From Acetatifactor sp. (lineage in GTDB: Bacteria; Bacillota; Clostridia; Lachnospirales; Lachnospiraceae), in the NCBI GenBank assembly GCA_024699575.1, contig JAILPF010000513.1, forward strand, positions 1 through 10,631: a stretch of 10,631 bases of DNA, in the 5' to 3' direction. The translations under genes were made by a program, and so were the position numbers. Positions 763-10,478 of the stretch are shown here, in pieces (the stretch's first letter is position 1; every line of letters starts with the position of its first letter). The notes beneath the pieces are model-generated. The model saw only the letters and a program-made list of their open reading frames with translations. It did no database searches and was not told where the DNA came from.

Positions 763-1110
763 TTAAAGTCCATTTTTCATACGAAATGATAATACAAAAA
801 ATAATCCAAATACACCTATCAAGATAAAAATTTGCCACACCAAACTGCCTGCTTGTGTTATTCTAGCTACCCACAAGAAGCTAGCAAGGTAGAATTCATA
901 AATTTGTGAAAGGAAAAGCATAACACTCTTTTTTTCTCCTCTTACATACCAATATACCAAAATTGGCATTACAACAGCAATCATAAAATGTGCAACCGCT
1001 TTTATAACTGTATCACTACCTACAATCAAATCAGATATAGATATCAAAATTGTAAAGGCAGCCACACCACTATAAAGATATTTTCCATAAATTCTATTTG
1101 CTTTTTCCAT
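763..1110 (-). CDS. Four-helix membrane protein, candidate bacteriocin immunity protein, 115 aa
   Basis: The protein is almost entirely hydrophobic, with four predicted membrane segments at about residues 11-31, 34-56, 62-84 and 87-109. They are separated by short charged turns such as RGEKKS, and the protein ends RMKNGL. The start is well supported: AAAGGAGG lies about seven bases before ATG 1110. The restored reading frame of the upstream bacteriocin ends at 1094, overlapping this start by 17 bases, so the two genes were made to be co-translated. Small polytopic membrane proteins directly after a bacteriocin gene commonly give self-immunity. I recognise no named family. The frameshift upstream now stops ribosomes at 1216, which could lower translation of this gene by loss of coupling, although its own ribosome binding site is strong. 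Confidence 0.8.
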   Translation of the reverse strand: MEKANRIYGKYLYSGVAAFTILISISDLIVGSDTVIKAVAHFMIAVVMPILVYWYVRGEKKSVMLFLSQIYEFYLASFLWVARITQAGSLVWQIFILIGVFGLFFVLSFRMKNGL

Positions 1111-1371
1111 TTAAAGACCTCCTTTGACATTTGTACACCAGTCCAGATCCAATATAGCATCCTGCGGTCGCTCCTGAAGCTGCAGCTCCGATAAGCATTG
1201 CTCCATATGCAGCTCCTACAAATGCAGAGGCAGGAGCACATGCAATGGCGATACATGCAGTACCTGCAATAGCAAGTCCAGCGCCAACACTCTCCCAATT
1301 GACACCCCATCAATTTTTTCCAATTCCATTGTCGAAAGCTGTGTGAATCCACTGTTTAAGACCATTTCCAT
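1094..1371 (-). pseudogene. Class II bacteriocin precursor, frameshifted at the double-glycine site
   Basis: From ATG 1371 (AGGAG ten bases upstream) the frame encodes a typical GG leader ending STMELEKIDG, then goes out of frame and stops at 1216 after 51 residues. Adding one base to the G run at 1305-1308 (CCCC on the plus strand) restores IDGG at the leader end. The frame then continues into a 69-residue core starting VNWESVGAGLAIAG and containing AYGAMLIGAAASGATAG, ending at TAG 1094-1096. The restored precursor is 92 aa, with a 23-aa leader. The core is small, hydrophobic, rich in Gly and Ala and has GxxxG motifs, as in two-peptide class II bacteriocins. It contains four Cys residues. 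The damage is exactly at the processing site. It may be a real loss of function, a reversible homopolymer slip or a sequencing error. Confidence 0.85.
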
Positions 1372-1410
1372 TTCTTTTTTTCTCCTTTTTCTTAAAATGT
1401 ATTTGTTCTT

Positions 1411-1454
1411 TACACTCATTCGAAAAAGCGATATACTTTACACGAGTACTTTTC
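1411..1454 (-). promoter_or_regulatory. Bacteriocin promoter box, copy 1
   Basis: This 44-base stretch aligns without gaps to 4004-4047 upstream of bacteriocin A, with about 33 of 44 bases identical. On the minus strand each copy holds two AAAGTA-type half-sites whose starts are 13 bases apart (AAAGTAC, then AAAGTATATC here). AGTGTAAA also lies between the box and the ribosome binding site in both. There is no good TTGACA -35 box, as expected for a promoter that needs an activator such as the LytTR regulator encoded here. The role is inferred; the conservation is seen. Confidence 0.6.
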
Positions 1455-1490
1455 CTGTGGAATCCTACTTCCGCTTGAGTGCTTACCTTG

Positions 1491-1528
1491 TGGCTTCCCT
1501 CTCGTTTGCGCAATTCGGTGGGAAGTCA
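1491..1528 (-). promoter_or_regulatory. Conserved stem-loop upstream of bacteriocin promoter, copy 1
   Basis: TGGCTTCCC (1491-1499) pairs with GGGAAGTCA (1520-1528): nine pairs with one G-T wobble. The loop contains TTGCGCAA. The equivalent element at 4068-4099 has a different stem sequence that still pairs perfectly and keeps TGCGCAA in the loop. On the minus strand no T run follows it here, so it does not look like a simple terminator. It lies upstream of the promoter box and downstream of the CPBP stop codon. Confidence 0.55.
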
Positions 1529-1542
1529 TTTTTTATATAAAT

Positions 1543-1555
1543 AGCCTGTTGGGCT
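1543..1555 (-). terminator. Weak hairpin just after the CPBP stop codon
   Basis: On the minus strand AGCC and GGCT form a four-pair stem around CAACA, followed by ATTTATATAAAAAA. It occupies the position of the better terminator at 4112-4137 in the parallel cassette and is flanked by the same ATATAAATCAG and TTTATATAAA words. The stem is too short to be a convincing terminator alone, so some read-through from the CPBP gene into the bacteriocin unit is possible. Confidence 0.3.
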
Positions 1556-1558
1556 GAT

Positions 1559-2404
1559 TTATATCGCATTCTCCAATTGTTCATCCTTTGGTTTATTACT
1601 GAAATATATCATTACTGTTCCTGTCATCAGTACGCCGCCTACAATTGCAAACAATATGCATGTTAATGTATCACTCTCCATATTACTCATTGAAAGAAGT
1701 TCACCACATGCGTTAAATATGCTGTGCATGATTATGGATGATATAATTGAATCTGTTTTTACCGCTGCGACTGCCCAAATGCATCCAATCACAAATGTGT
1801 ATGTCATCCATAGTGGCTGAAGATGTCCCACACCAAACAATAATGATGATAAGAGCACTGCTACAGTTACCGGCATCGCCCTTCTGAGTCTGGATAAAAT
1901 GATTCCACGGAAAAATATTTCCTCCGCAATGGGCGCAACCACAACTCCAAACAATATCGAGAAAGCTGTCATATTCTGGAATAATGCACCCGATGCTTCC
2001 TCATATTCTTCAAGCACAGATGCCGGCAACAGGTTCAGCACTCCATCCACCAGCAATGCCATTCCCAATCCCATAACTACAAGATACGGAATTTCTGTTT
2101 TTTGAATGTTCTTTATGTTTGCTTCCCGATACCATTTCTTTTTGCGAATACCGAAAAACGCCATTAAAAACAGTACACACAGGACATCGGAAATGAAAAC
2201 CAGTAGGACTTGATTGCTAAGCAGAAATTCTTCCGTCATTTGAGTTGCAGTAATCTGATCTATCATCTCACCGTTAAGTCCGCTTTGAACTCCGATGACA
2301 ACACCATATACTATGCTGCCCAAAATGCCAATCAGCAGTTGCATTCCAAAGAATAATAAGAGATAACAAGTTACTTTACCCAGTTGTTTTAATAAGTTTT
2401 TCAT
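1559..2404 (-). CDS. CPBP-family (Abi/CAAX-like) intramembrane protease, 281 aa
   Basis: This is a polytopic membrane protein with all three CPBP signature motifs: EEIFFR (E161, E162, R166), FGVGH (F190, H194) and HSIFN (H227, N231). These are the glutamates, histidines and asparagine of the family's active site. Around them are about seven or eight hydrophobic segments, beginning at residues 11-40. CPBP proteins are frequent in class II bacteriocin loci, where some act in self-immunity and others in peptide maturation; which applies here is not visible. I choose ATG 2404, although its ribosome binding site is poor. The open frame extends upstream through a TTG at 2437 without a better site. 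The stop codon TAA lies within the conserved ATATAAATCA word that opens the next bacteriocin promoter region. Residues 66-95 are duplicated perfectly at 1-91. Confidence 0.9.
   Translation of the reverse strand: MKNLLKQLGKVTCYLLLFFGMQLLIGILGSIVYGVVIGVQSGLNGEMIDQITATQMTEEFLLSNQVLLVFISDVLCVLFLMAFFGIRKKKWYREANIKNIQKTEIPYLVVMGLGMALLVDGVLNLLPASVLEEYEEASGALFQNMTAFSILFGVVVAPIAEEIFFRGIILSRLRRAMPVTVAVLLSSLLFGVGHLQPLWMTYTFVIGCIWAVAAVKTDSIISSIIMHSIFNACGELLSMSNMESDTLTCILFAIVGGVLMTGTVMIYFSNKPKDEQLENAI
2119..2209. repeat. 91-bp perfect direct repeat with 1-91
   Basis: This internal segment of the CPBP gene is identical to the left edge of the window at an offset of exactly 2118 bases. The repeat ends abruptly at 2209/91, where the two copies diverge completely. 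Its other end is unknown because copy one runs off the window. Two such direct repeats could recombine and delete the third bacteriocin, its immunity candidate and the GyrI-like gene. Confidence 0.95.
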
Positions 2405-2477
2405 GTTTATAACCCGTCTTTCTGCGAAAGCCACCAATACGATTATGAAACTGGTGGTACTCGCTAATCTATCGTTT

Positions 2478-3368: not shown

Positions 3369-3650
3369 TTATGATATTGCGTCAGCAATAAAATCCCAAG
3401 CACTCTCAGCTGCACTTTTAGCGCCTGCATATCCTAAGCGAGCGCCTACCGCACCTGTTCCAATACCAACAACAACGCCTGCCGGTGTGGCAAAACCCAG
3501 AGTAGAACCAGTGGTAACGGAAAAGCCGCCCACAAAGCCTGCAGCTGCTCCTACTACGCCACCACAAACACCTACTCCTGTGCAAACCACTTCCTTAACG
3601 CCACCACCATTGATTAATAGTAAATCATCAGAAGATAAAATTTCGACCAT
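3369..3650 (-). CDS. Class II bacteriocin precursor B with GG leader, 93 aa
   Basis: The leader is short: MVEILSSDDLLLINGGG fits the GG-leader pattern (acidic DD, then LxxI before the glycines). Cleavage after Gly16 or Gly17 leaves a core of about 76-77 residues. The core starts VKEVVCTGVGVCGG, carries two Cys residues five apart, is rich in Gly, Ala and Val with several GxxxG motifs (GAAAGFVGG, GAVGARLG), and ends in a more polar helix (SAAESAWDFIADAIS). AAGGAGG lies seven bases before ATG 3650 and directly follows the stop of bacteriocin A, so the two are co-translated. Such pairs suggest a two-peptide (class IIb) bacteriocin, with the membrane-spanning helices meeting through GxxxG. The ABC exporter encoded here would process it. 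Pairing with A is inferred. Confidence 0.85.
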   Translation of the reverse strand: MVEILSSDDLLLINGGGVKEVVCTGVGVCGGVVGAAAGFVGGFSVTTGSTLGFATPAGVVVGIGTGAVGARLGYAGAKSAAESAWDFIADAIS

Positions 3651-3662
3651 ACCTTAGCCTCC

Positions 3663-3971
3663 TTAACCTAAATAACCAGCAGCTGCAACGCCTGCAGCTG
3701 CTCCAGCCACAAATCCACAAACACCACAAATTACTCCACCAACAATTGCCCCTGTTGCAACGCCTGCCGGAACCGCAACAACAGTAGCCGCTGTTCCTAT
3801 CCCTCCTATCATTGCGCCAAGAGCCGCACCAGACTGTGCTCCACCATAAGCACCTCCAATGCCACCAACGACACCTCCTACAACAAGTTGCCATAATTCA
3901 GCTCCACCTTCTGTTGTCATAATGTCGTCATACGACATTTCACAGAAACCATTGATAAACGTAATTTCCAT
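3663..3971 (-). CDS. Class II bacteriocin precursor A with GG leader, 102 aa
   Basis: The 23-residue leader ends in DIMTTEGG; the 79-residue core starts AELWQLVVGG. The core is extremely rich in Gly and Ala and hydrophobic, with repeated GxxxG-type motifs (GGVVGGIGGAYGG, GAALGAMIGG). It has a Cys pair (ICGVC) near the end and terminates GVAAAGYLG. GAGGAG lies ten bases before ATG 3971. Upstream are the promoter box and stem-loop shared with the third bacteriocin; downstream, the stop codon TAA touches the ribosome binding site of bacteriocin B. The family expectation is membrane pore formation in related bacteria after leader removal by the C39 exporter. I do not recognise a named bacteriocin. 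The leader contains an unusual Cys (GFCEMSY). Confidence 0.87.
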   Translation of the reverse strand: MEITFINGFCEMSYDDIMTTEGGAELWQLVVGGVVGGIGGAYGGAQSGAALGAMIGGIGTAATVVAVPAGVATGAIVGGVICGVCGFVAGAAAGVAAAGYLG

Positions 3972-4003
3972 TATTTAAAATCTCCTCTTCTCTTAATTGT
4001 TTT

Positions 4004-4047
4004 TACACTATTTAAGAAAAGTGATATACTTAACCTAGGTACTTTTC
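4004..4047 (-). promoter_or_regulatory. Bacteriocin promoter box, copy 2 (bacteriocins A and B)
   Basis: This is the homologue of 1411-1454. On the minus strand the half-sites are AAAGTACC and TAAGTATATC, again starting 13 bases apart, followed by AGTGTAAA. It lies 33 bases upstream of ATG 3971 and probably drives bacteriocins A and B. As in copy 1, there is no consensus -35 box. The LytTR regulator at 8001-8750 is the natural candidate to bind it. Confidence 0.6.
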
Positions 4048-4067
4048 TTAAAGTGCTTGTGATTAAA

Positions 4068-4099
4068 GGCTCTGATAGTTGCGCATACTTTTCAGAGCC
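4068..4099 (-). promoter_or_regulatory. Conserved stem-loop upstream of bacteriocin promoter, copy 2
   Basis: GGCTCTGA (4068-4075) pairs perfectly with TCAGAGCC (4092-4099), and the loop carries TTGCGCA. On the minus strand it is followed by TTTAATC, so it may also terminate weakly. The stem sequence differs wholly from the copy at 1491-1528 while pairing is kept, which points to selection for structure. Confidence 0.55.
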
Positions 4100-4111
4100 C
4101 TTGCTTTATAT

Positions 4112-4137
4112 AAAACAGTTTGTCTTTGACAAATCTG
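4112..4137 (-). terminator. Rho-independent terminator after the exporter operon and gene remnant
   Basis: On the minus strand CAG-A-TTTGTC pairs with GACAAACTG around an AAA loop: nine pairs with one bulged A. TTTT and then ATAT follow. It lies just after the remnant of the GyrI-like gene and would separate the regulator/exporter transcript from the bacteriocin A/B promoter. Confidence 0.7.
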
Positions 4138-4151
4138 ATTTATATTGTTTT

Positions 4152-4211
4152 CTACAAGCTGTTTGGACTAATCCCCACATACAACTCTTGATTCTCTTTA
4201 ATTTCTAACAT
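4152..4211 (-). pseudogene. 19-codon remnant of a second GyrI-like gene with its middle deleted
   Basis: The complete mini-frame reads MLEIKENQELYVGISPNSL and stop. The first ten residues match the start of the 152-aa protein at 222-680 (MLEIKEKQEL), and the last nine match its end (YVGINPNIL). About 133 codons between them are missing, and the deletion kept the frame. The start keeps a strong AAAAGGAG site four bases before the ATG, better than that of the full-length gene. Synonymous differences from the intact copy show an old paralogue, not a recent duplicate. The same ATATAAATCAG and hairpin follow both genes. It is most likely dead; translation of a 19-aa peptide remains formally possible. 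Confidence 0.8.
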
Positions 4212-4257
4212 ATTACTCCTTTTGACGAACTAAGTGATGATTGGTAAGAAACTCGTG

Positions 4258-5796
4258 CTATTTGGCACCAAACAGTTTCTCAATCAGCACATTCATCACG
4301 CTTTTGGTCTCCGTTATTATTTTGGTTTCACACAACATACCAACCTTTAATCTTGCAATATCACCGGACTTGTTACAAAACTCTGTGCTATCGATTGAGG
4401 ATTCGATTACATAATATGCACTTCCGCTTTCATTGACCTTGAGGTCGGCAGATACAAATTCCACCTGCCCACCCATTGTTCCATATTCATTTGATGGATA
4501 TGCGGATATTTCATACTTCACCTTCATGCCTTCATCAATCTTGGCAATGTCACCATTCGCAATATAGCTTTTCACAATATATGCACTGCTCTCTGTATCG
4601 GGAATGATGGATAAAAGCTGCATTCCTCCGGTTGCATAATCTCCCAGAGACACATCGTTTATCATATTTACCACCCCGGAAATAGGTGCCTTCACATAGG
4701 CATTTTCAAGCGAAACACTTAAACTCTCTATCTGCTTCTGTAAATCCTGCTGTTTTTGCCTGCATATATTTAGCTCCGACACAACCGCATTATGTTCGGT
4801 TGCGATGAGTCCCATAACCTTGGTATTTACACCATTCTTCGTTAATGATGTCTTTCCGTTCATATATTCGGATTTATTATTTTGAGACAGTTTAATATTT
4901 TGTTCCAAATTCAAAATTGTCTGTTCCACAGCTTCTATACTCTGTGTTTCATAAGCTTTCAATGCGCTATCCCGTTGAAATAACATATCATTAATACTTT
5001 TTTCTAAGTCTTCCACTGCACCAGATGTAGCGTCACCATCACTGACTGTTTTCTGTAATTCCTCTTTTTGTCTGCGTAATTCATTAATTTTCACATCATA
5101 CTGCCCGGCGGTATTATTATATTGTGCAATATAATTTTCCATTCGGCTGTAATAATATGTCTCATTTTTTGAAAATGGATTTTCGTGTTTGGAAAGCGCT
5201 TCTTTTAAACGCCTGTTCCAATCAATTTCACTCTGATAATACTCCTCCATACTTCCACTGGTTTCAATCTTTGTCGCATACGTAGACAGTTCATCATGAT
5301 AATTTTGATATAAACTTTCTTCATTATTTTTTACCAATAACATTCTTGAAGCTATATCGGAATAATAAATATTATTCTGATATTCCTCTCCGATCGAAAC
5401 ATCATCCTCCAGCCACGCATCGTAGGCTTCCAGCATAGCTATTCGTTCCTCGTTATCTTCAGCCTGCTTTGTATATGCTTCTAACTGCAAATCATAATCC
5501 TGATGTTCGATTGCATAAAGGATGTCACCTTTTTCCACTCTTTGTCCGTCCTGCACATTTTTCACTGCTATGAGTCCCGGCAACTGATTGGACACCGTAG
5601 AAATATCAGCCGCAACGGCTATCGTGCCCACACCTTTTACCTCTATATCCACTCTAAAAATGCACATCCAAATCACAGCAAGCACAACAAATATCATGAT
5701 GACATGCAGGAACCAGAAAACAACCGGATGTGGTTTGGAGCCATAGACCTCCGTACTGTCTGTCATTTCATTCATATCTATAATTATCGGTTTCAC
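4258..5796 (-). CDS. HlyD-family accessory protein of the bacteriocin exporter, 512 aa
   Basis: The protein is anchored by one N-terminal membrane segment (about residues 25-47). A first lipoyl-like half-motif (KGVGTIA ... GLIAVKNVQDGQRVEKGDIL, about 54-93) follows. A long charged coiled-coil region fills about 100-350, then comes the second half-motif (YVKAPISGVVNMI ... GDYATGG) and a beta-rich C-terminal domain. This is the standard order of membrane fusion/accessory proteins working with peptidase-containing ABC bacteriocin exporters. The gene begins with GTG at 5796, with AGAGG nine bases upstream, 15 bases after the exporter stop codon; an internal ATG at 5775 is a weaker alternative. 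It is the last intact gene of the regulator/exporter operon. Its length is similar to or a little longer than typical Gram-positive relatives. Confidence 0.93.
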   Translation of the reverse strand: MKPIIIDMNEMTDSTEVYGSKPHPVVFWFLHVIMIFVVLAVIWMCIFRVDIEVKGVGTIAVAADISTVSNQLPGLIAVKNVQDGQRVEKGDILYAIEHQDYDLQLEAYTKQAEDNEERIAMLEAYDAWLEDDVSIGEEYQNNIYYSDIASRMLLVKNNEESLYQNYHDELSTYATKIETSGSMEEYYQSEIDWNRRLKEALSKHENPFSKNETYYYSRMENYIAQYNNTAGQYDVKINELRRQKEELQKTVSDGDATSGAVEDLEKSINDMLFQRDSALKAYETQSIEAVEQTILNLEQNIKLSQNNKSEYMNGKTSLTKNGVNTKVMGLIATEHNAVVSELNICRQKQQDLQKQIESLSVSLENAYVKAPISGVVNMINDVSLGDYATGGMQLLSIIPDTESSAYIVKSYIANGDIAKIDEGMKVKYEISAYPSNEYGTMGGQVEFVSADLKVNESGSAYYVIESSIDSTEFCNKSGDIARLKVGMLCETKIITETKSVMNVLIEKLFGAK

Positions 5797-5811: not shown

Positions 5812-8004
5812 TTACTCGTTCTCCAGGGACTGTTGCTTAACCAATTCCGCATATTTACCATCTTGCATACGTAATTCTTCATGGGTTCCTGCTTCGATTA
5901 CTTTCCCTTTTTCCAGCACATAAATTCTGTCACAATGCTTAATCGTACTTAATCTATGCGCAATAAAAATGGTTGTCATATCCTTACAGTATTCACGAAT
6001 TGTCTCATCCAATGCCCGTTCGGTAATAGCATCCAGATTGCTCGTTGCTTCGTCTAAAATTAAAATATCAGGGTTTTTGAGCATTGCCCGTGCAATGGCC
6101 AGCCGCTGTCTTTGTCCACCTGAGAGGTTTGCTCCGTTTTCCTCCAGCCTCGTCTCATACCGTAACGGCATCTCATTGATAAACTCATGCGCCTGCGCCT
6201 TCTTGGAAGCTGCAATCACATCATCCACTGTAATATCATCAATACCCAGCATCAAATTTTCCATGATTGTGCCGCTAAAAAGAAAGGTCTCCTGTGAAAC
6301 ATAAGCAATTTTATCTCTTAGCACCTCTATACTGATATCTTCTAAATTATTTCCACTGATTGTGATATCGCCTTTTTCCGGACGATATAGATGTAGCAGC
6401 AGTTTGGACAACGTAGTTTTACCGGAACCACTCTCACCGACAAATGCCACCTTCTCTCCCCTTCCAATTAATATATTCACATCTTCGAGAACTAATTTTC
6501 TGGTACCATATCTGAAATCAATATTTTTGAATTCTATATCTCCCAATAATGACTGCGGTTTCATCTTTCTTAGTTCAGTCTCATCTTTCTCTGCATCAAG
6601 ATCGAGAATCTCCCCCAGTCGCTCAGCCGCCACAACTGCTGTCTGCATTTGTGGCTGAAGATTGATTAAATTTTTAATCGGCTCCAGGAAATATATCAAA
6701 AGAGAATTGAAGGTAATTAACTGTCCAATTGTCATACTGCCATTGATAACATGTATTCCACCGACCCACAGAATCACAACGCCACCAATCAATTCAACCG
6801 CTGTTTTCAAAGAACTTTGTATATTGCCGACCATACACAAATCAAACACACTTTGTAACAATCTGACAAATTTCTTTTCCGTGTTCAGATTTGCTTTTCT
6901 CTCCGCATTATATGCCTTCACCGTTTGAATACCATTTAAAGACTCCACCAGGTAAGAAGTAAGCTGTGCATTATCTTCCATCTGTTTTTCATTTAACTTC
7001 TTATATGGCTTCTGAAAGGCAAAAACAATAATTGCATAAAAAATAACCAGAATCAATGTGATACCAAAAAGCATTCCATCTTGTGTGTATAAGATAATTG
7101 CTCCGGCGAACGCCATCAGCGTATCAATCATGATTGTAAGCGTCGCTCCGGAAATAGCATCTCGCACCTTGGAAGCATCATTAAATCTGGAGATAATCTC
7201 TCCCACTTTTCTGGTTCCAAAAAAATTCATGGGTAACTCCAAAACATGACGATAATACCCAAGCAATAAAGCGATGTCCAACTTCTGACTCAGATAAAGC
7301 AACAGATGGGCGCGAAACGCATTCAGCAATATGCGGAAAATATTTAATACAATCACACCTATGGACAATGTCAACAACGTATTTTTTAATCCGTCCGGCA
7401 ATACCGTATCGACCAGTTCTTTAAAGTAAAATGCTGCCAGAATACCAAATGCTGTATATAAAAGCGACGCTAAAAATATGTGAATCAACAGCATTTTTTG
7501 TGGAATCAGGAGGCGGAGAAAACGCTCAAATAATCCCTGCGTTTCGTCTTTCTTTTGAAATGTTTCGTTTTTCACGAGCAATATTAAGATTCCCGTCCAA
7601 CGATACTCCGGTATTTCTCCTTCAGGCACATTACTGCCAAAGAACTCTTCCGGTGTGAGTTTTACGATTCCTTTACCCGGGTCTGCAATCACAACCTGTT
7701 TTTCTGTAATTTTATGTATTACAACATAATGCAACAAATTACCTTTTACAATCACATGTGCAATACACGGCAATGGGAATTCTGAAAAAAAAGCTTCCGT
7801 ATTGCCTTTTACCCCTTTTGCAGAGAATCCCAAATGTTCTGCCGCCTGTATCACTCCATAAGCATTGGTTCCCTGTTTATCTGTACCGGCAATTTCTCTG
7901 ATTTTTGAGATGCTTAACTTATAGCCGTTTTGTTTAGCTATCGTTGCCAGGCAGGCCGCCCCGCAATCTGTTATATCATGTTGTCTGACACAGTAATATC
8001 TCAT
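5812..8004 (-). CDS. Peptidase C39-containing ABC bacteriocin exporter, 730 aa
   Basis: This full-length exporter cuts GG leaders and pumps out the core peptides. The N-terminal C39 protease domain (about 1-145) has Gln8, catalytic Cys14 (DCGAAC), His92 (LHYVVIH) and Asp108 (ADPGKG). The membrane domain (about 165-445) has six helices. The ATPase domain (about 485-730) has Walker A GESGSGKT (523-530), Q-loop Gln571, signature LSGGQ (627-631), Walker B ILILDE (647-652) and H-loop His683. All key residues are present, so it should be active. ATG 8004 overlaps the regulator's TGA by four bases, which indicates translational coupling. It is the only exporter in the window and so probably handles the pheromone and every bacteriocin. 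Confidence 0.97.
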   Translation of the reverse strand: MRYYCVRQHDITDCGAACLATIAKQNGYKLSISKIREIAGTDKQGTNAYGVIQAAEHLGFSAKGVKGNTEAFFSEFPLPCIAHVIVKGNLLHYVVIHKITEKQVVIADPGKGIVKLTPEEFFGSNVPEGEIPEYRWTGILILLVKNETFQKKDETQGLFERFLRLLIPQKMLLIHIFLASLLYTAFGILAAFYFKELVDTVLPDGLKNTLLTLSIGVIVLNIFRILLNAFRAHLLLYLSQKLDIALLLGYYRHVLELPMNFFGTRKVGEIISRFNDASKVRDAISGATLTIMIDTLMAFAGAIILYTQDGMLFGITLILVIFYAIIVFAFQKPYKKLNEKQMEDNAQLTSYLVESLNGIQTVKAYNAERKANLNTEKKFVRLLQSVFDLCMVGNIQSSLKTAVELIGGVVILWVGGIHVINGSMTIGQLITFNSLLIYFLEPIKNLINLQPQMQTAVVAAERLGEILDLDAEKDETELRKMKPQSLLGDIEFKNIDFRYGTRKLVLEDVNILIGRGEKVAFVGESGSGKTTLSKLLLHLYRPEKGDITISGNNLEDISIEVLRDKIAYVSQETFLFSGTIMENLMLGIDDITVDDVIAASKKAQAHEFINEMPLRYETRLEENGANLSGGQRQRLAIARAMLKNPDILILDEATSNLDAITERALDETIREYCKDMTTIFIAHRLSTIKHCDRIYVLEKGKVIEAGTHEELRMQDGKYAELVKQQSLENE

Positions 8005-8750
8005 AGCTTTCCTCTCGCATGCCTTATCTTTTCTGTATGCCTTTCTTTGACTTCTCTTCTGTGCTTTCTGCTCAGCGGAACTTCCACGTCATCTCCGAAA
8101 TATACTGATTCATTTCCGACTTCTTTGATTTTGTCGAAGTTAACGATAAAACCTTGATGGACATAACCAAAAATATCGGAATCCAATCTCTGAAATATTT
8201 GTCGCAATGGTTCGTAACATATTTTTTCCCCATCGTCCATATGAATGACAGATTGATTTCTACGCTTTTCGATGTAAATTATCTGATCGACATCTAATAT
8301 GATATTTCCCCTATTAGCATTGATTTCCAGATATTTTTTTGTTGCCTCACTCTCATCCTTTTGATAAGCAATTTGGACAAGTGCTTTTTTTAATACTTTC
8401 TTCAATGCATCGTATTTTACCGGCTTCACCAGATAACCTATTGCCTCAAGGTCGTATGCACAAAGTGCGTATTCATCATGGCTTGTCACAAAACAGATTT
8501 CGCCACTATAACCTTGTCCCCGCAAATGATCTGCCGCATCAATTCCGCTAATCGGTTTCATTTCAATATCCAGAAACAGAATGTCAAAATTACAATCTTG
8601 TGCAACAGCTTCCAACAAATCCTGTGCATTCAAATATATCTTGCATTTCAAATCGTAATTGTTTTCATCTGTATAAACTTTAATGCATTCAACCAATTTA
8701 TTTAAGAAATATTCTTCATCATCACACACACCTATGTTTATTGTTTTCAT
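8001..8750 (-). CDS. LytTR-family response regulator, 249 aa
   Basis: The receiver domain (about 1-125) has the acidic pair Asp10/Asp11, phosphoacceptor Asp61 (FLDIEM), Thr89/Ser90 and Lys109 (VKPVK). A LytTR DNA-binding domain (about 145-245) follows, with YVHQGFIVNFDKIKEV and PLSRKHRREVKE. This is the AgrA/ComE/PlnC-type architecture that controls bacteriocin genes in response to secreted peptides. I choose ATG 8750, with GAGGAG seven bases upstream; the TTG at 8765 would overlap that site. It lies between the pheromone gene and the exporter, in the same direction, and its partner is very likely the kinase at 9177-10478. Likely targets are the direct repeats at 9088-9121 and the boxes upstream of both bacteriocin operons. 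Confidence 0.95.
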   Translation of the reverse strand: MKTINIGVCDDEEYFLNKLVECIKVYTDENNYDLKCKIYLNAQDLLEAVAQDCNFDILFLDIEMKPISGIDAADHLRGQGYSGEICFVTSHDEYALCAYDLEAIGYLVKPVKYDALKKVLKKALVQIAYQKDESEATKKYLEINANRGNIILDVDQIIYIEKRRNQSVIHMDDGEKICYEPLRQIFQRLDSDIFGYVHQGFIVNFDKIKEVGNESVYFGDDVEVPLSRKHRREVKERHTEKIRHARGKL

Positions 8751-8846
8751 CGACCGTCTCCTCAATCTTATATTGTCATGTTAACAATAAAACAAAAACA
8801 AATTCAACCCCTCGGTGATGTTTGGTTCAAAACACGTGGTGATTGG

Positions 8847-9008
8847 TCAGTTTCCTTTCAGCCAATTGGTTATTATTTCAAACACATTTTCCCACGGAGT
8901 ATATTTAGTTGGTTCTTTTCCATCACTATCCCCACCACTGATTTCATATAATTCATCTTCCTCTACTTTCATAAATTGTTCCGTAAACAGTTGTTTCTCT
9001 CTTTTCAT
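8847..9008 (-). CDS. GG-leader peptide, likely inducing pheromone, 53 aa
   Basis: The leader, residues 1-26, starts MKREKQLFTEQFMKVEEDEL and ends YEISGG, matching the GG-leader consensus (ELxxIxGG). The predicted mature peptide is 27 residues, starts DSDGKEPTKYTPWE and ends with the amphipathic NVFEIITNWLKGN. It has two Trp and a net charge near -2, and lacks the Gly/Ala-rich GxxxG body of the bacteriocins. GGAGG precedes ATG 9008 by about seven bases. Its position, first in the regulator/exporter operon and back-to-back with the kinase, is that of an inducing peptide in three-component bacteriocin systems (compare plantaricin A or ComC-type signals). It could instead be a small bacteriocin, but no immunity gene follows it. 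It is easily missed because it is so short. Confidence 0.85.
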   Translation of the reverse strand: MKREKQLFTEQFMKVEEDELYEISGGDSDGKEPTKYTPWENVFEIITNWLKGN

Positions 9009-9081: not shown

Positions 9082-9087
9082 GTTCAG

Positions 9088-9121
9088 TGGTATTTGACAT
9101 GTTTCCAATGGTATTTGACAT
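9088..9121. promoter_or_regulatory. Two 13-bp direct repeats 21 bp apart, probable regulator operator
   Basis: TGGTATTTGACAT occurs at 9088-9100 and again, without change, at 9109-9121. The 21-bp step equals two helical turns, so both sites face the same side of the DNA. That is the arrangement typical of LytTR dimers at quorum-sensing bacteriocin promoters. The pair lies between the back-to-back pheromone and kinase genes; the right copy contains the kinase promoter's TTGACA. Confidence 0.75.
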
Positions 9122-9144
9122 ATTTTTGAAAAAAATGGTAAAAT
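9115..9144 (+). promoter_or_regulatory. Strong promoter of the histidine kinase gene
   Basis: TTGACA (9115-9120) is followed after 18 bases by TAAAAT (9139-9144), a near-perfect housekeeping promoter. It predicts a short leader of about 25 bases before ATG 9177. Because the -35 box is inside the right operator repeat, a bound regulator could block or modulate kinase expression while activating the opposite promoter. Confidence 0.7.
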
Positions 9145-9176: not shown

Positions 9177-10478
9177 ATGAATGAACTTACAATTTATACA
9201 GAAACATTATCAAACATCATTACATTGGCAATTCTTGATGAGGCTATTGGACATTTTTTACACTATCGTGAAAATATAAATCTATTCCGCACAAGGTTCA
9301 TTTTTTATGGGCTTACAATTATCTTATCGATTACACATCTTTTTCCTCATCATACAGCAGTTCTCACTTGCCTTGAGATAATCTATCTTATAACGGTAAC
9401 CAGGGCCTCCTTTTGGCGGTACCTGTATACTTATTTATTATACTATCTTTACACCTATGGAATCGGACTTCTAATTTTATCCATTTACACTATTGTTTAT
9501 TTTAAATTTGTTCCAATTATGGATGAGTCTCTTGATACCTTATATCAATTCACCCAGATAACCGTCGTCTTTGTTATGTATCTCATTCTGGTTACCTATA
9601 TTATTGGGAAACATAAAGCATCACAACCCCGGGCGACTAAGTACAGAGCCTATTTTCTTTCTTTTATTTCGCTGATTGTCATACTCTTACTTGGCACAAA
9701 TGTGCTCTATGGCAAGCTTTTAACAGAAACCAACAATTCAACCGGATATCCTCTTCTGTTTCTGTTGCCCACCATTGAATTGATTGCTTTAATCTACATT
9801 ACTATTTTCCGAAAATTTTTGGATGTCATGGACGAAAACATATCCATGCGAACGGAACTGAATATCAACACCTTACAAAAAGATTATTTTACCCGTACAG
9901 AGGATAATTTAAAAACACTGTCAATCCTGAGACATGATTTTAAAAATCATCTGATTGTCTTAAGTGATTATGCAAATACCAACCAGATTGATAAATTCAA
10001 CGAATATCTCGAAAAAATACAAGGTTCCCTCTCGGAAACCACTTTGATTCGCACCCCCTCCAAAGTTTTATCTGCCATCCTTAATTCAAAGGCTCAGGAT
10101 GCCCGGCTTGCCGGAATTACTTTCAACACCGATTTACAAATCCCACTTTGGACAATGAGTGATTTTGATGCTGTGGTTATTTTGGGAAATTTATTGGATA
10201 ACGCGATTCGCGCTGCACAGAAATGTAACTCTCCGTATATTAATTTGTGTATGAAGCAGGTAGATTCCTATCTGGATATAGACTGTACCAACAACCATTG
10301 CGAAACAATCCTCGAAAAGAACGGAAAACTTCTCACTACAAGAGAGCAACAAAAAGAGCTCCACGGACTTGGTCTTTCCAGTGTCCGCAGAGCTGTCAAT
10401 CGAATTAACGGTGAGTTAGAAATCAATTATACCGATGATACCTTCCATGCCTTTGTATCATTTCCAAACTATTTATAA
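9177..10478 (+). CDS. AgrC-like GHKL (HPK10) sensor histidine kinase, 433 aa
   Basis: Six hydrophobic segments lie within about the first 215 residues. A linker helix follows, then the phosphorylation motif LRHDFKNHL with His253. The ATP-binding domain has the N-box LGNLLDNAIRAA (about 337-348) and the G-box HGLGLSSV (about 396-403). The HDxKNH form and short C-terminal ATPase place it with peptide-pheromone receptors such as AgrC and PlnB. I choose ATG 9177, with GAGG nine bases upstream; the ATG at 9162 has no site and lies almost at the predicted transcript start. It is back-to-back with the pheromone gene, so ligand and receptor are neighbours. A terminator follows it. Its end overlaps the end of an opposing gene by ten bases. 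Confidence 0.93.
   Translation: MNELTIYTETLSNIITLAILDEAIGHFLHYRENINLFRTRFIFYGLTIILSITHLFPHHTAVLTCLEIIYLITVTRASFWRYLYTYLLYYLYTYGIGLLILSIYTIVYFKFVPIMDESLDTLYQFTQITVVFVMYLILVTYIIGKHKASQPRATKYRAYFLSFISLIVILLLGTNVLYGKLLTETNNSTGYPLLFLLPTIELIALIYITIFRKFLDVMDENISMRTELNINTLQKDYFTRTEDNLKTLSILRHDFKNHLIVLSDYANTNQIDKFNEYLEKIQGSLSETTLIRTPSKVLSAILNSKAQDARLAGITFNTDLQIPLWTMSDFDAVVILGNLLDNAIRAAQKCNSPYINLCMKQVDSYLDIDCTNNHCETILEKNGKLLTTREQQKELHGLGLSSVRRAVNRINGELEINYTDDTFHAFVSFPNYL

Follow-up and report, generated by a model that had tools for sequence, protein, structure and literature searches.

A candidate ComC/BlpC-type peptide pheromone gene in a bacteriocin locus of Acetatifactor sp.

The short double-glycine gene and its neighbours

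The window analysed here is a 10,631-nucleotide stretch of DNA from Acetatifactor sp. (Lachnospiraceae), in which a short frame lies between a divergent sensor kinase gene and a set of regulator, exporter and bacteriocin-like genes. This frame (8847–9008, minus strand) consists of 53 codons preceded by the Shine-Dalgarno sequence GGAGG just 5' of its ATG, so that the coordinates, strand, translation and strong ribosome binding site given in an earlier note on this DNA all hold. The translation, with the leader separated from the core, is MKREKQLFTEQFMKVEEDELYEISGG|DSDGKEPTKYTPWENVFEIITNWLKGN, comprising a 26-residue leader ending in GG (8931–9008, minus strand) and a 27-residue core (8850–8930, minus strand), whose computed monoisotopic mass is 3180.54. 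The leader, which the earlier note had called clean, has the arrangement shared by the majority of the 19 relatives in the alignment, with a hydrophobic residue at −12, an E at −8, an L at −7, an I at −4 and a terminal GG. The core is also unlike the Gly/Ala-rich bacteriocins, as had been proposed; both intact bacteriocins of the locus are longer (93 and 102 residues) and rich in Gly and Ala.

Downstream of the peptide gene and on the same strand lie, in order, a response regulator with receiver and LytTR DNA-binding domains by Pfam (8001–8750), a peptidase C39 ABC exporter (5812–8004; PF03412, and TIGR01193 with 695 bits against a cut-off of 524), an HlyD-type accessory protein of the exporter (4258–5796; 96 bits, where the TIGR01000 cut-off is 259) and two GG-leader bacteriocin-like genes that are likely targets of the system. 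A linked C39 exporter, above its model cut-off, and an accessory protein are thus both present, and this exporter family cleaves after GG. The first bacteriocin-like gene (3663–3971) is assigned as class II from its frame, its leader and a weak TIGR03949 score (14.5 bits against 21.5), and the second (3369–3650) from its frame and leader, with no family match. A third GG-leader bacteriocin-like gene (1094–1419, minus strand) has, as read by eye, a frame broken near the GG site, the product of natural decay or an assembly error. Amid the bacteriocin-like genes there is also a gene for a CPBP (CAAX-like) membrane protease (1559–2437, minus strand) that possibly has a role in immunity or processing. 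Bases 1–91 of the contig are repeated exactly at 2119–2209, inside the CPBP gene, a repetition that probably reflects either recombination or the edge of the assembly.

On the other side of the peptide gene, the plus strand encodes an HPK10-like sensor histidine kinase (9177–10478) whose catalytic half is SpoOB-type/HATPase_c_5 with a GHKL domain by Pfam. The kinase start at ATG 9177 was chosen from its Shine-Dalgarno sequence and is likely; it leaves 168 bp between the two divergent start codons, in agreement with the back-to-back arrangement described earlier. The AlphaFold model of the kinase (pLDDT 81.5, pTM 0.55) contains about seven N-terminal helices, which are predicted to be membrane-inserted from the helices together with hydropathy; passages of PMC4873836 describe HPK10 kinases as having 5–8 membrane segments. 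The best structural match in the PDB is the cytoplasmic part of AgrC, which covers the catalytic half alone, with other kinases close behind.

Database searches place the peptide at the margin of described families. The search proposed in the earlier note, made with the single sequence against 5.8 billion proteins, returned the window peptide and nothing else. As far as these searches reach, the claim that the core matches no known pheromone stands for the exact core, but the peptide has relatives at the same position in 19 other loci. Against the NCBIfam ComC leader model the match is weak (E 6e-4, 19.3 bits against a cut-off of 50), and across the curated ComC models PF03047 and NF033214 the peptide has no Pfam match and an NCBIfam score below cut-off. 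It has no match to the class II bacteriocin model PF10439 above the gathering score, nor to any Pfam family, and a PDB sequence search with the peptide profile found no match. The core carries a net charge of −2, while 17 of the 19 relatives are neutral or basic, and its amphipathicity lies at the 99th percentile among its own shuffles. Taken with its setting, the 53-residue gene is very probably the source of a secreted signal comparable to the quorum-sensing peptides of streptococci.

A peptide family defined by position

Relatives of the locus were gathered through the kinase. While a single-sequence kinase scan of genome contigs recovered no relatives, a search based on an alignment of 33 kinases gave 78 loci in named genomes. 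The kinases P0002 and P0003, from metagenome contigs, are 62% and 48% identical to that of the window. A gap was defined as the DNA separating each kinase from the first large divergent gene beside it, giving 23 gaps (the window and 22 relatives); for L051 and L066, whose contigs lack such a gene, a segment of the upstream DNA was used. Four loci (L047, L057, L064 and L065) were excluded from this comparison as they are cut by the contig or have the kinase away from the exporter. Under a strict rule (minus-strand mini-ORF with a start codon, hydrophobic residues at −4 and −7, GG and a tail of 12–45 residues), a GG mini-ORF was found in 17 of the 23 gaps, every one with an SD-like sequence, and never on the other strand. 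With 300 dinucleotide shuffles per gap, the expectation is 0.12 gaps of 23, or 0.02 with an SD. Shuffles of the window's own gap (n = 300) contained a GG mini-ORF in 1.0% of cases and in 0.3% when an SD was also demanded. Six of the 22 relative gaps lack a strict match: three are near misses (L043 with T at −4, L059 with Q at −7 and L063 ending in AG), L049 and L062 contain no GG mini-ORF, and L066 is interrupted by the contig end. Adding the three near misses by hand reading brings the set to 20 loci with a peptide, that of the window included.

More distant GHKL kinases served as a control, for which at least 500 bp of upstream DNA was needed and an ORF of this kind was accepted within 700 bp on either strand. 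Such an ORF occurs beside 3 of 51 of these kinases (3/45, and 0/6 added later; L064 is included, and L079 and L112 are too short upstream), indicating that a GG mini-ORF beside the kinase is largely specific to the window's kinase clade. The earlier note had made conservation of the frame in related loci, and an excess of synonymous over non-synonymous change, the touchstones of its reading. The GG frame is kept in place in the 19 loci, and dN/dS is below 0.5 in the four computable pairs (0.34, 0.16, 0.40 and 0.34) out of five hand-picked ones, the fifth giving no dS; all are pairs of relatives, as the window peptide has no close homologue from which its own selection could be gauged.

A profile search identified 16 family proteins at E ≤ 0.01, the query among them. 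One of these, P0125, occurs on 591 contigs, and the three proteins with a named source are all called 'hypothetical protein'. The same-position relative in L055 passes the Pfam ComC model PF03047 (25.7 against 20.4), and the peptide family thus touches ComC via the leader. In a peptide search of 299 family genomes, matches at E 0.01–1 other than the window's own peptide, many of them in much larger frames, were taken as chance; the match in G008 (E 0.45) is the same-position peptide of L059. Viral contigs yielded no relative, and plasmids and phages gave partial kinase matches, none reaching 80% coverage of the kinase. Separately, the close relatives P0129/P0135 and P0123/P0126 have nearly identical leaders and much altered cores, as expected for a pherotype change.

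Across the 20 peptides the leader follows a recognizable code: position −12 is L in 15 and L/V/M/I in all 20, position −8 is E/D in 19, position −7 is L/M in 17, position −4 is I/V/C/T in 20, and the leader ends in GG in 19 and AG in one. Trp is present in 15 of the 20 cores, in several cases within FDW, QW or DFW contexts, and as a set the cores exceed their own shuffles in amphipathicity (Stouffer z 6.1, n = 20).

Similarity between cores follows similarity between the membrane halves of the adjoining kinases (Mantel rs 0.31, p 0.002), and this holds after the catalytic half is partialled out (0.25, p 0.008; 0.012 under new permutations). The plain correlation of core with catalytic half is smaller (rs 0.19, p 0.04) and vanishes once the membrane half is partialled out (−0.02, p 0.54), and that of core with exporter is 0.08 (p 0.21, 17 loci). 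The result changes somewhat with sampling: rs is 0.28 (p 0.010) with a near duplicate dropped, 0.39 (p 0.007) without the Mediterraneibacter clade and 0.24 (p 0.04; partial 0.20, p 0.065) without the largest peptide clade. The leader, for its part, correlates with the membrane half (0.32), the catalytic half (0.34) and the exporter (0.30), with partial values of 0.15 (p 0.066) for the membrane half and 0.17 (p 0.038) for the catalytic half. Part of the pattern is therefore due to common descent. Core and leader differ in the expected direction, though modestly, and these comparisons offer moderate support for a core that tracks the membrane half of the kinase more than its catalytic half.

Direct-repeat boxes and a leader RNA

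The divergent region contains a 20-bp direct repeat with a period of 21 (9085–9125), and in the relatives the DNA 5' of the peptide gene contains a box of the form TACCAAATAGCAC-N8-TACCAAATAGCAC, again with a 21-bp period. A matrix built from the relatives without the window detects three boxes in the window, all on the minus strand, where the best score from 20 shuffled windows was 10.9 bits. The first (9087–9120, 33.0 bits) lies 5' of the pheromone gene; a −35-like TTGAAA starts 7 nt after it (9079) and is followed at short spacing by a −10-like TATAAA. The second (8815–8848, 23.7 bits), with TTGAAT at +7, overlaps the pheromone stop codon and lies 64 nt 5' of the regulator ATG. The third (4234–4267, 39.0 bits) falls where the accessory gene ends, 5' of the bacteriocin genes, and has no TTG at +7; a scan with the window's own 13-mer had lost this site among chance matches, and the relatives' matrix recovered it. 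Portions of PMC2766830 and PMC6193735 describe the LytTR architecture as repeats of 9 bp with 12 bp between them, placed some 10 bp 5' of the −35 element. The boxes at the peptide genes have this geometry, and the window boxes are predicted binding sites of the LytTR-type.

The box is a consistent feature of the family. Its leave-one-out score at the peptide is at least 20 bits in 18 of 19 relatives (19.6 in L063), and a TTG stands exactly 7 nt past the box in 20 of 20 loci, where the TTG made up 3 of the 34 scored bases of the placing seed. A degenerate pattern, run over the 3.16-Mb assembly (77.8% complete), has three exact matches, all in the window; as it was drawn from these same sites, this result bears only on the absence of other exact ones. 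Elsewhere in the assembly there are one match with one mismatch and four with two mismatches, and the reversed control gave 0. Of the 16 relatives with a regulator visible in the locus, 12 also have a box at that gene. Three others have none within 300 bp of the regulator (which lies elsewhere or is cut), and in L041 the regulator follows the peptide. Under a strict rule that requires a GG-leader frame with a Gly/Ala-rich tail of 20–45 residues no more than 800 nt past a box, 6 of 19 relatives qualify, and a box precedes a GG-leader bacteriocin-like frame in 10 of 19 when longer frames are read by eye.

These boxes qualify the claim that the peptide gene heads a regulator/exporter operon. The peptide gene does precede both, but the regulator has its own box (8815–8848) and need not rely on read-through from the peptide gene. 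Right after the third box is a remnant (about 4155–4216, minus strand) that, by eye, resembles the two ends of ORF 222–713 joined together, as if an internal stretch close to the bacteriocin promoter had been deleted. Given the lack of a TTG at +7 and this ORF222-like remnant behind the box, the bacteriocin promoter may be damaged in this strain even though its signalling genes are intact. L137 (G000 C593:1489–1520, minus strand) is another box, with one mismatch and a suitably spaced TTG; it is located beside rpsF-ssb-rpsR-like frames with no obvious downstream gene, and could possibly serve an induced small RNA or be a relic.

The mRNA of the first bacteriocin gene is predicted from a covarying alignment to begin with a conserved structured 5'-leader RNA (3997–4121, minus strand), and a second copy, found as a model match (1404–1548, minus strand), precedes the frame-disrupted bacteriocin-like gene. 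This leader of about 125 nt is modelled with a helix 1 around a CGCG/GCGC loop and helices 2–3 that enclose AAAAGTACCTAGGTAAAGTATAT..CTTTT. It also occurs at L041, L042, L043, L052, L059, L149–L158 and others, and a model of 16 sequences gave 28 matches in the 25 loci searched, those 16 and 12 more. One of those 12, a third copy in the same genome as the window (L178; G000 C173:7708–7803), is cut by the contig end. Pairing is kept in 95.5% of 573 cells, compared with 28–45% when the partners are slid, and changes occur on both sides in 15 of 21 pairs; the alignment was itself fitted to the model, which favours structure in these figures.

Rfam 15 at gathering thresholds had no match for the leader RNA from five sources including the window, and a permissive Rfam scan of window positions 3960–4260 gave only weak matches far below gathering. 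Searched by pattern, 4 of 138 genomes of the genus have the leader RNA, and these are exactly the four with a pheromone kinase at E ≤ 1e-60; among family genomes the pattern occurs in 9 of 397. The model finds it in 11 of 250 family genomes, and therefore also beyond the pheromone kinase clade. Among 27 copies (the second window copy left out), 13 precede a GG-leader frame, 8 a protein whose start by eye resembles a signal peptide, 1 another small frame and 5 no listed frame. The leader RNA is thus a candidate new cis-regulatory RNA of the Lachnospiraceae. No description of it was found in the open-licence PMC literature, and it may be more novel than the pheromone system here.

The proposed circuit, its alternatives and its relatives

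The reading considered highly probable is that the frame is the precursor of a ComC/BlpC-type pheromone in a switch for bacteriocin production. The complete circuit proposed in the earlier note gains support from the kept frame, from dN/dS, from the joint variation of core and sensor (moderate) and from the LytTR-type repeats. First, a secreted and probably unmodified peptide would be made from 8847–9008, with the adjoining C39 exporter expected to cut after Gly-Gly and export the 27-residue core. Next, the core would bind the multi-helix membrane half of the divergent kinase, consistent with the covariation of core and sensor, and the kinase, judged by its family, would phosphorylate the LytTR regulator. 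The regulator would then bind the 21-bp-period repeats 7 nt 5' of the −35-like elements and act on the pheromone gene (positive feedback), on its own gene and on the bacteriocin genes, whose promoter is less clear. Promoter activation with positive feedback is the behaviour anticipated from the named families. Overall, the locus would switch on bacteriocin production in response to cell density or to neighbours. The weakest link is direct induction of the window's bacteriocins, as the third box has no TTG at +7.

The peptide could instead be a small bacteriocin that uses the exporter while the kinase senses something else. It has a GG leader and shares the exporter, and short amphipathic GG peptides such as plantaricin A can be antimicrobial; 5 of the 20 family peptides match PF10439 (Bacteriocin_IIc) at E ≤ 0.1, the best being L055 (20.5 against 27.1). 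Against this stand the fixed site beside the kinase in 20 loci and the variation of the core with the membrane half of that kinase, and the intact bacteriocins of the locus are of the longer, Gly/Ala-rich kind described above; this reading is quite unlikely. A pheromone that is also weakly antimicrobial would agree with the amphipathicity of the cores as a set, but typical membrane-active peptides are not acidic, as the window core is (net −2), and such a dual function is judged very unlikely. Finally, an untranslated chance or decayed frame, which would suit a protein search returning the peptide alone and the damage to the bacteriocin part of the locus (third box, frame-disrupted gene), is extremely unlikely in view of the SD, the leader code, the 53 intact codons, the position kept in 19 relatives and the gene's own box.

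The pheromone circuit resembles the ComC/CSP-ComDE and BlpC-BlpHR systems in its GG-leader precursor, C39 ABC exporter, HPK10-type kinase, LytTR-family regulator, direct repeats about 21 bp apart 5' of the promoter and bacteriocin targets. The gene order and box of the streptococcal ComC/BlpC systems provide the reference for the differences: in the window the kinase is transcribed divergently from the pheromone/exporter unit, the regulator is apart from the kinase and has its own box, the box sequence differs, the host belongs to the Clostridia and not to the lactic acid bacteria, and the peptide falls below the ComC cut-offs. The streptococcal parts and their 9–10 bp repeats about 21 bp apart are described in sections of PMC4739728 and PMC4873836, and the sil system in a section of PMC2766830. 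Since the window peptide fails the ComC models, while L055 passes PF03047, the window locus is filed, on sequence features, as a member of the ComC/BlpC-type kind of system, outside the ComC model family.

GSP of Streptococcus gallolyticus is similarly a GG precursor, and its bacteriocin-inducing signal passes through a kinase and its regulator. In PMC8545107 the most damaging loss is that of Trp10, which Leu-Lys follows, and GSP is trimmed three residues past the GG. The comparison with the family is between the importance of this Trp and the Trp-containing cores, with no overall sequence similarity claimed. Among the 19 relatives, the peptide with the highest overall identity to that of the window (28%) comes from the Lactobacillus rogosae ATCC 27753 record (L059, 9716–9859). 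The two share the core pattern W-[EK]-N-V-[FY]-[ED], and the L059 box repeats are perfect; unlike the window, L059 has a short exporter frame (269 residues), and its kinase membrane half is only 21% identical. The agr system (AgrD/AgrC) shares the kinase superfamily, with the AgrC cytoplasmic part as the best PDB match, but the window core contains no Cys that could form an agr-type thiolactone, a C39 exporter takes the place of AgrB, and a Pfam search among ten window proteins found no AgrB. The available text of a rumen bacteriocin paper (PMC13289728) treats GG-leader peptides and quorum sensing in general terms only, and no account of these Lachnospiraceae systems was found in the open-licence PMC literature.

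The same circuit, with other signal cores, is found in related genomes; the locus is present, for example, in the records of Mediterraneibacter glycyrrhizinilyticus An427 (L045) and Roseburia sp. 1XD42-69 (L053). Quorum sensing by GG-pheromone peptides is known mainly from lactic acid bacteria. There is about an even chance that the loci represent a lineage-wide Lachnospiraceae dialect, undescribed in searchable papers, made up of divergent kinase/GG-pheromone pairs, fast-changing cores read by matching sensors, a TACCAAATAGCAC repeat code for the regulon and a leader RNA control layer on some bacteriocin and secreted-protein mRNAs. On the mRNAs of target genes, the leader RNA may amount to a new regulatory class in its own right. 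In gut Lachnospiraceae, the signal, exporter, sensor, regulator, DNA box and likely targets can be read as a complete set. Because the cores can be synthesized and the boxes used as reporters, what triggers bacteriocin production, and who talks to whom in the gut, become directly testable.
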